Assembly (NCBI RefSeq): GCF_016623585.1
Contig: NZ_JAEHFY010000011.1
Span: forward strand, 62,001-126,000
DNA length: 64,000 nt
Direction: 5' to 3'
Source: Pedobacter segetis
Lineage (GTDB): Bacteria > Bacteroidota > Bacteroidia > Sphingobacteriales > Sphingobacteriaceae
This document shows positions 49,244 through 50,200 of the stretch, in pieces. Each line of letters opens with the position of its first letter. The stretch's first letter is position 1. The notes under the pieces are model-generated. The model did no database searches. It saw nothing but the letters and a program-made list of their open reading frames with translations, and was not told where the DNA came from. The translations under genes were made by a program, and so were the position numbers.

Positions 49244-49720
49244 CTATTTCAAAGTAATCTGTCTTTTGATGCTCTCTTCTAAAGAAATAAATGTTTCTGT
49301 ACGCTGGATACCCGAAACCGCTTGTATTTCATCGTTTAAAACATATCTTAAATGGTTGGTGTCTCTACAAATAATTTTTGCAAACATAGAATAGCCACCC
49401 GTGGTATAATGTAGTTCTACTATCTCTTTGATTTTTTTTAGCTCATTAACGGCATCATGATAAATAGAACCTTTTTCTAAATAGATCCCTAAAAAAGCAC
49501 AAATATCATAACCCACTTTTTGGGCATCTACAATTAGGTTAGATCCTTTGATAATGCCCAAATCCTGCATCTTTTTCATCCTCACATGTATGGTGCCGCC
49601 AGAAACGATCAATTCTTTGGCTATTTCTGTATAGGCGGTGGTTGCATCGTTCATTAAAATAGATAAAATATCTATATCCAAATTATCAATTTCTAAATTA
49701 GGTCTTAATTTATCATTCAT
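49244..49720 (-). CDS. Lrp/AsnC-family transcriptional regulator
   Basis: This 158-residue regulator has an N-terminal AsnC helix-turn-helix (NLDIDILSILMNDATTAYTEIAKELIVSGGTIHVRMKKMQDLGII, about residues 13-58) and a C-terminal RAM ligand-binding domain (about 75-155; SMFAKIICRDTNHLRYVLNDEIQAVSGIQRTETFISL). Such proteins usually sense amino acids and act locally or globally. It is monocistronic; the target is not evident from neighbours. Confidence 0.92.
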   Translation of the reverse strand: MNDKLRPNLEIDNLDIDILSILMNDATTAYTEIAKELIVSGGTIHVRMKKMQDLGIIKGSNLIVDAQKVGYDICAFLGIYLEKGSIYHDAVNELKKIKEIVELHYTTGGYSMFAKIICRDTNHLRYVLNDEIQAVSGIQRTETFISLEESIKRQITLK

Positions 49721-49793: not shown

Positions 49794-49825
49794 TTTGCAA
49801 CGTATTACCAATAGCATTACATTTG
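49794..49825 (+). promoter_or_regulatory. Bacteroidota-type promoter of the unusual tRNA-like gene
   Basis: TTTG at 49794-49797, a 20-nt spacer and TACATTTG at 49818-49825 match the TTTG/TAnnTTTG consensus, with the same spacing as the tRNA-Gln promoter in this window. The tRNA-like gene begins 60 bp further. Confidence 0.72.
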
Positions 49826-49884: not shown

Positions 49885-49996
49885 TGTAGGGTGGTGAAAT
49901 TGGCAGACACACCTCCTTGTCTCGGTGGCGAAGATTTGGGAAATAGCCGCAAGGTGAAATAACTGCTTCGTGTAGGTTCGACTCCTACCCCTACAG
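49885..49996 (+). tRNA. Unusual class-II tRNA-like gene, apparent anticodon GTC, 112 nt
   Basis: The sequence folds as a cloverleaf. The acceptor pairs TGTAGGG (49885-49891) with CCCTACA (49989-49995); C49884-G49996 would make it 8 bp. The D arm GTG/CAC encloses AAATTGGCAGA with the conserved GG. The T arm is GTAGG-TTCGACT-CCTAC. The anticodon arm is CCTCC-TTGTCTC-GGTGG with one T-T mismatch, giving anticodon GTC after a normal T33, but position 37 is a pyrimidine. The variable region is 43 nt (49929-49971), closed by CGAAG/CTTCG and containing a GCC-GCAA-GGT hairpin. GTC would read Asp codons, yet Asp tRNAs are class I. It has its own promoter and a terminator-like hairpin. It may be a functional odd tRNA, a tRNA-derived regulatory RNA or a decaying tRNA-Leu/Ser. 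Confidence 0.6.
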
Positions 49997-50031
49997 CCCT
50001 TTCGTTTAATTTAGGTTTATAATTGGTTAGT

Positions 50032-50062
50032 TTAAGCTCCACTCTCCCCGTTTGGAGCTTAA
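50032..50062 (+). terminator. Terminator-like hairpin after the tRNA-like gene
   Basis: TTAAGCTCCA and TGGAGCTTAA form a perfect 10-bp stem with an 11-nt loop, followed by a weak T-rich stretch (CTGTTTTATAAGCTTTTT). Confidence 0.6.
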
Positions 50063-50200
50063 CTGTTTTATAAGCTTTTTGAAATTGAAAAACTTAAATC
50101 TATAATTAAAACAGCTAGCATCTGAACATTTTAATATCTCCGTCAAAAAATTTCTATTTTCGGTAAAAGCATTTAAACTATAATGCTATAAATATCCAAT

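Follow-up and report, generated by a model that had tools for sequence, protein, structure and literature searches.

What is made from a gene that has the outline of a tRNA and an aspartate anticodon, together with a variable arm far longer than that of a tRNA-Leu? The question is raised by positions 49885–49996 (forward strand) of the 64,000-nucleotide stretch of the Pedobacter segetis genome analysed here, which we call the window. The initial annotation described a class-II-shaped tRNA-like gene of 112 nt, with a GUC anticodon, a 43-nt structured variable region containing a GCAA hairpin and a pyrimidine at position 37, and the sequence agrees with this. On the comparisons set out below, the product of the gene is probably a tRNA-like carrier that does not decode and serves tRNA-dependent asparagine synthesis; it would be charged by AspRS, amidated by GatCAB and placed under the control of AsnC.

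The RNA body, from position 1 to the discriminator G73, occupies 49885–49996, as indicated by the Rfam tRNA match, by our family models R1 and R2 and by covariation. C74 follows at 49997, and the CCA is not encoded. The acceptor stem is formed by UGUAGGG (49885–49891) and CCCUACA, the latter followed by G73 and C74 (49989–49997). An acceptor of 8 bp had been suggested, but it has 7 bp, since position −1 varies (C in 54, T in 15 and A in 13 of 82 members). The D arm (49894–49910) is tRNA-Leu-like, with 3 bp and a GGCAGA loop that lacks U20a, while the T arm (GUAGG-UUCGACU-CCUAC, 49972–49988) is canonical, as judged by the Rfam match and pair counts. The anticodon arm (CCUCC-UUGUCUC-GGUGG, 49912–49928) has the anticodon GUC at 49919–49921 in a TTGTCTC loop with a pyrimidine at position 37; its five stem positions include a U-U mismatch, which is fixed in the home family and is a pair in most other families. 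The variable region (49929–49971) consists of a base stem (49930–49933 with 49966–49969), a GAAA/UAA internal loop, a 3-bp stem (49937–49939 with 49963–49965) and a GNRA hairpin (GCC-GCAA-GGT, 49946–49955). Mimicry of an anti-Shine-Dalgarno sequence by the home-family anticodon arm (CACCTCCTT) was considered and dropped: other families have GCCCTCC or GCCCGC, with the stem re-paired.

Upstream on the same strand, TTG at 49795–49797 and TACATTTG at 49818–49825 form what we take to be a Bacteroidota-type promoter (49795–49825), and TAnnTTTG-type elements are similarly placed in many homologues. A conserved 3′ trailer box, AGGTTTATAATTGGTTAG, was recognized from the alignment of flanks and is matched exactly in the window (50013–50030). 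It runs into a hairpin, AGCTCCA/TGGAGCT followed by TTTT (50029–50069), which from its sequence and predicted fold is probably a terminator. The gene had been credited with its own promoter and a terminator-like hairpin; the promoter is borne out, and the hairpin with its short T run is present, although a simple terminator scan gave it no score. Many members (e.g., L171, L179, L130) have GTTCTTT(AA) or GTTCTTA directly upstream, resembling the boxA antitermination element of stable RNA leaders.

Standard searches pass over this gene. ARAGORN made no call at 49885–49996, and a scan of Rfam with fast filters did not report it. With permissive filters, the Rfam tRNA model RF00005 matched exactly 49885–49996 at 35.3 bits, above the gathering score of 29, so that the covariance-model check proposed in the initial annotation came out in favour of a tRNA-like RNA. 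Rfam 15 has no entry for the family itself, only the generic tRNA family and chance matches, and no description of it was found in the literature, for which open-licence papers were searched. The window copy folded alone is not unusually stable (z −0.72) and single-sequence folding did not yield a cloverleaf, so the evidence for the RNA is comparative.

A DNA search of 60 relatives found homologues in 30, but the weakest matches include a few ordinary tRNA-Leu genes. A first covariance model (R1), built from 11 members, detected the RNA throughout the home family apart from certain genera, and across the class; the second model (R2) added one genus outside the class. On R1, true members score at least 66 bits and are 109–196 nt long, whereas cross-matching tRNA-Leu genes score at most 65 bits and are 79–88 nt long. 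Within Bacteroidota, the RNA spans no fewer than 19 groups at family level. Named matches include Mucilaginibacter, Pedobacter, Chitinophaga, Algoriphagus, Cyclobacterium, Echinicola and Saprospiraceae, and all records that give a taxon in the title are Bacteroidota. No match was found in phage or plasmid collections, and a mobile-element role was set aside. P. segetis has a single copy, whereas multiple copies or tandem arrays are common among its relatives. Arrays of three to five copies with near-identical spacers were seen at L170 (7004–7722), L175 (5001–6621), L139 (5001–5372), L322 and L328, which suggests selection for dose.

The members form a conserved, covarying family. In an alignment that was itself fitted to the structure, 96.8% of paired cells are pairs and 20 of 30 base pairs have changed on both sides, a number reached in none of 500 shuffles. 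A MAFFT alignment of 11 members gave 8 pairs changed on both sides. Compensatory changes are present in every arm, including the helices of the variable arm, where they had been proposed as a test and where the base stem does covary among members. Across families, the variable arm keeps the covarying base stem, the 3-bp stem and a conserved internal loop (GAAA or AYAAA opposite UAA), while the length of the hairpin tip is highly variable. Several families (L134, L145, L150, L158, L165, L166 and others) have an extra domain at this tip, ATAATG ... GGGTTGACCACTAAA, in which an inner hairpin is optional; this domain has the look of a binding module in its own right. One member (L157, 5001–5135) has a hairpin inserted in the D loop (AAACCGGTCTGAATGACCATGGCAGA). 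A tRNA-Leu is the probable origin of the RNA, as both share the D-arm sequence and the class of variable arm. The RNA differs from tRNA-Leu in having G73 instead of A73, a U1-A72 pair, the GUC anticodon and a far longer variable arm with internal motifs. The covariation and the spread exclude a recently broken tRNA-Leu gene, and the earlier view that this is a real, maintained, class-II-shaped gene, not a product of random decay, is upheld.

The pattern of sequence constraint points to the likely partners of the RNA. Among 82 distinct members, U1-A72, G2-C71, U35, C36, G73 and C74 are invariant, and G34 (79) and C38 (80) nearly so. A second set of 115 members, found mostly via the anticodon arm, has U1 in 114 and A72, G73 and C74 in all 115. 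The determinants for aspartate in bacteria are G73, G34, U35, C36 and C38 (PMC9976931), the very positions that are held constant or nearly so. It is U1-A72 that allows GatCAB to amidate Asp-tRNA(Asn), whereas G1-C72 or U20a prevents it (PMC9976931); all 82 members have U1-A72 in place of G1-C72, and none of their D loops has U20a. In P. segetis itself, tRNA-Asn and tRNA-Gln have U1-A72 and tRNA-Asp has G1-C72. Some features fit aspartylation less well and count against the carrier proposed here. Bacterial tRNA-Asp retains G1-C72, which is said to aid AspRS and which the RNA lacks; G10, a minor AspRS feature, is kept in only about half of members; and three members have U34 or C34 (L141, L159 and L167; two with UUC, a Glu anticodon, and one with CUC), which might be charged otherwise than the GUC members.

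The positions that matter for decoding are relaxed. U33 is present in 72 of 82 members, the other 10 having G or C, and at position 37 the purine expected of an elongator tRNA is found in only four members, against a pyrimidine in 78. The doubt already voiced about a decoding role was therefore justified, and there is probably none. Taken together, the constraints fit an RNA kept for aspartate charging and amidation and not for decoding.

The neighbouring gene provides a link to asparagine, and neither gene nor link featured in the initial annotation. Divergent from the RNA, across a gap of 164 nt, lies a gene for a 158-residue regulator of the Lrp/AsnC family (49244–49720, reverse strand). 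Among solved structures, this regulator is closest to E. coli AsnC (2cg4, E = 9.5e-37), ahead of Lrp (2gqq, E = 4.7e-12). The NCBIfam AsnC model NF008384 is its best match at 173.6 bits, and is also matched by 39 of 39 relatives; as the score is below the cut-off of 227, we call the gene asnC-type and not a proven equivalog. Orthologues are 49–90% identical. Of 58 fetched loci, 38 have an asnC-type gene divergent from the RNA, as do 61 of the 77 named loci that could be assessed, where the median gap is 152 nt; the pairing recurs in the genus outside the class. In E. coli, asnC is divergent from asnA across a gap of 151 nt. The RNA is thus found where E. coli has its gene for asparagine synthetase A, and asnC is paired with an RNA gene in the one case and a protein gene in the other. 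In G002, a degenerate 96-nt copy lies beside asnC (L186, 5002–5097), which ARAGORN labels tRNA-Tyr(ata), and an intact copy lies elsewhere without asnC.

If the RNA serves asparagine synthesis, its distribution should follow the relevant genes. We searched 80 genomes, half of which have the RNA. Metabolic AsnB was defined as a match to NF006949 above cut-off, because TIGR01536 is misleading in that amidotransferases of polysaccharide clusters also score. By this measure, AsnB is present in none of the 40 genomes with the RNA and in 18 of the 40 without. GatB shows the opposite, with 40 of 40 against 17 of 40. Fisher values were about 1e-7 to 1e-9, and 0.001 and 0.0002 with the genera of the home family collapsed, the genomes not being independent samples. 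AsnRS was found in every one of the 49 genomes checked, a few having a divergent form; of 30 genomes with the RNA, 25 have GlnRS. Where GlnRS is present GatCAB is not required for Gln-tRNA, yet among such genomes GatB was found in 25 of 25 with the RNA and 3 of 16 without (Fisher 3e-8, uncorrected). In one of the three exceptions the asnC gene abuts a contig end (G007) and another is a 95%-complete draft (G016). In the third, G029 (L187, 4952–5063), the 3′ half of the RNA is deleted and the remainder fused to the trailer and terminator beside an intact asnC, which is either a real loss or an assembly artefact.

Gain and loss can also be followed within lineages. Genus g44 has both states: G079 and G091 have the RNA and GatB but not AsnB, whereas G060 and G107 have AsnB and neither of the others. 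When mapped on a 30-genome AspRS tree, the joint switch from RNA and GatB to AsnB takes about five changes, of which at least two are forced by well-supported branches. The idea that the RNA and GatCAB are merely ancestral and AsnB unrelated was weighed against these switches and rejected. The asnC gene is retained in genomes that have AsnB and not the RNA, and several of these still have the trailer box and terminator upstream of asnC, having lost the tRNA-like body. In G022, which has neither GatB nor AsnB, a decayed remnant of the RNA is present. In home-family genomes (L350, L351, L353, L356) the trailer box AGGTTTATAATTGGTTAG and terminator outlive the body, and may have a function of their own.

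The match is not exact, and three observations count against the RNA being the proposed carrier. AsnA occurs in 2 of 40 genomes with the RNA (and 6 of 40 without); several genomes without the RNA have GatB and neither AsnB nor AsnA, although in some of them GatCAB may serve Gln; and most genomes with the RNA encode AsnB-like proteins of 600–650 residues, which might yield some asparagine.

P. segetis follows the general pattern. Its genome encodes AspRS, AsnRS, GlnRS and GatB, and neither AsnA nor metabolic AsnB; the sole AsnB-like gene sits in an exopolysaccharide cluster. Near this cluster is a patatin-like protein (L394, 862–1881) related to the cGAMP-activated phospholipases of CBASS. The P. 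segetis AspRS has the motif RDLGG, as in discriminating enzymes, where the non-discriminating AspRS of P. aeruginosa has RDHGG, a difference that we presume, from mutational work, to matter for discrimination. If this AspRS is discriminating, it would not aspartylate tRNA-Asn, and the pathway would need just such an RNA, with an Asp anticodon and U1-A72.

We know of tRNA-dependent asparagine synthesis only on translational tRNA-Asn, with a non-discriminating AspRS. In that pathway, found for example in Bdellovibrio and Deinococcus, a non-discriminating AspRS acts with GatCAB on tRNA-Asn, and Bacteroidetes are among a puzzling group of genera that have AsnRS, GlnRS and GatCAB but not AsnA or AsnB (PMC4206432). 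AspRS, GatCAB, an RNA with U1-A72 and G73 and the AsnRS- and GlnRS-containing genomes that lack AsnA and AsnB are common to both systems. What differs is that here the RNA would be separate and non-decoding, with an Asp anticodon, a structured variable arm and asnC as its partner; for such an RNA, a discriminating AspRS would be enough.

In the pathway that we infer, the RNA would be transcribed and its 3′ end finished by the ordinary CCA-adding enzyme. AspRS, reading G34-U35-C36, C38 and G73, would attach aspartate, and GatCAB, which would accept the RNA through U1-A72 and reject G1-C72 tRNA-Asp, would convert the aspartate to asparagine. The asparagine would then be freed or passed on, supplying AsnRS and the cell; this release is the weakest step of the scheme and may involve a putative hydrolase or acceptor. 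The Asn-charged RNA would be barred from Asp codons by its changed anticodon loop and its large variable arm, and we guess that this arm may bind AspRS or GatCAB, or exclude the RNA from the ribosome. E. coli AsnC regulates asnA, and in the same way an asparagine-sensing AsnC would set transcription of the RNA.

Several other explanations need to be considered. The best of them, though unlikely, is that the RNA is regulatory: it would mimic a tRNA and, by binding AspRS, GatCAB or AsnC, sense the state of charging or of asparagine, and would not be the RNA on which asparagine forms. This would suit the linkage to asnC, and also the conserved 3′ trailer and large structured variable arm, which exceed the needs of a carrier, as well as the trailer box that persists in AsnB-containing genomes once the body is lost. 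A pure regulator, however, would have no need to stand in for AsnB, nor would it be expected to track GatCAB even where GatCAB has no Gln duty. The RNA also keeps the determinants for charging and amidation, with C74, as a substrate would, and asnC is retained where the RNA is lost.

It is distinctly improbable that the RNA is a minor translational tRNA, an isoacceptor with an unusual variable arm that inserts Asp or Asn at GAC and GAU. The near-canonical acceptor, D and T arms and the GUC anticodon would be expected of one, but P. segetis already has an ordinary tRNA-Asp(GUC), and the relaxation of positions 33 and 37 and the U-U mismatch fixed in the home-family anticodon stem are out of keeping with decoding; if amidated, such a tRNA would place Asn at Asp codons. 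Hardly more plausible, and if anything a little less so, is a role in delivering Asp or Asn to a non-ribosomal transferase, such as one that helps to make cell wall, lipids or peptides. Non-decoding tRNAs that act as amino acid donors do exist, such as the cell-wall tRNA-Gly of Staphylococcus, which is similarly freed from the constraint of decoding, and the tandem arrays suggest a high dose. The product in Staphylococcus is a wall cross-bridge, though, while a free amino acid is proposed here. No constant transferase neighbour was noticed, the recurrent divergent neighbour being asnC (the one neighbour scanned against protein families), and the exchange with AsnB would be left unexplained.

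The initial annotation also raised the possibility of charging by SerRS or LeuRS, with misreading of Asp codons, and of a new allo-tRNA. Allo-tRNAs are likewise bacterial, with long variable arms, non-canonical shapes and odd anticodon use that in some includes GUC, and their defining feature is an acceptor branch of 12 bp, divided 8/4 or 9/3 (PMC7609411). They have Ser identity and come from other phyla, whereas the branch here is 7/5 and the identity that of the Asp/Asn pathway. G73 is common to serine tRNAs, but Leu identity requires A73, and Ser elements are C72 and C11-G24 (PMC9976931); G73 and A72 are invariant here and U11-A24 is found in 75 of 82 members. The 7/5 branch also sets the RNA apart from tRNA-Sec, whose acceptor branch has 12–13 bp. 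As SerRS does not read the anticodon, the constraint on GUC would be unexplained, and both suggestions are to be rejected as extremely improbable. Equally improbable is a decayed tRNA-Leu gene, despite a D arm like that of tRNA-Leu(GAG) and weak tRNA-Leu homology in distant genomes, in view of the compensatory changes in every arm, the invariant loop and acceptor letters and the phylum-wide spread.

The AspRS and GatCAB pathway is known on tRNA-Asn; a dedicated non-decoding RNA for it appears to be an undescribed class of RNA, and one that gene finders overlook: in the loci checked, ARAGORN missed every intact member. On balance we favour the view that the RNA is a dedicated metabolic cofactor for free asparagine that replaces asparagine synthetase in much of Bacteroidota, in which the variable arm would be an element for assembly or release and AsnC would set the dose. 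If this is true, a metabolite would be the product of a tRNA that has kept its signals for synthetase and amidotransferase and dropped those for decoding, and the RNA would offer a natural case for testing how charged tRNAs are excluded from the ribosome. An RNA would have replaced a protein enzyme gene at one genomic spot, asnC-RNA in place of asnC-asnA. It would also explain why many Bacteroidota with AsnRS and GlnRS keep GatCAB without a metabolic asparagine synthetase, and predictions of asparagine auxotrophy based on AsnA and AsnB would change.
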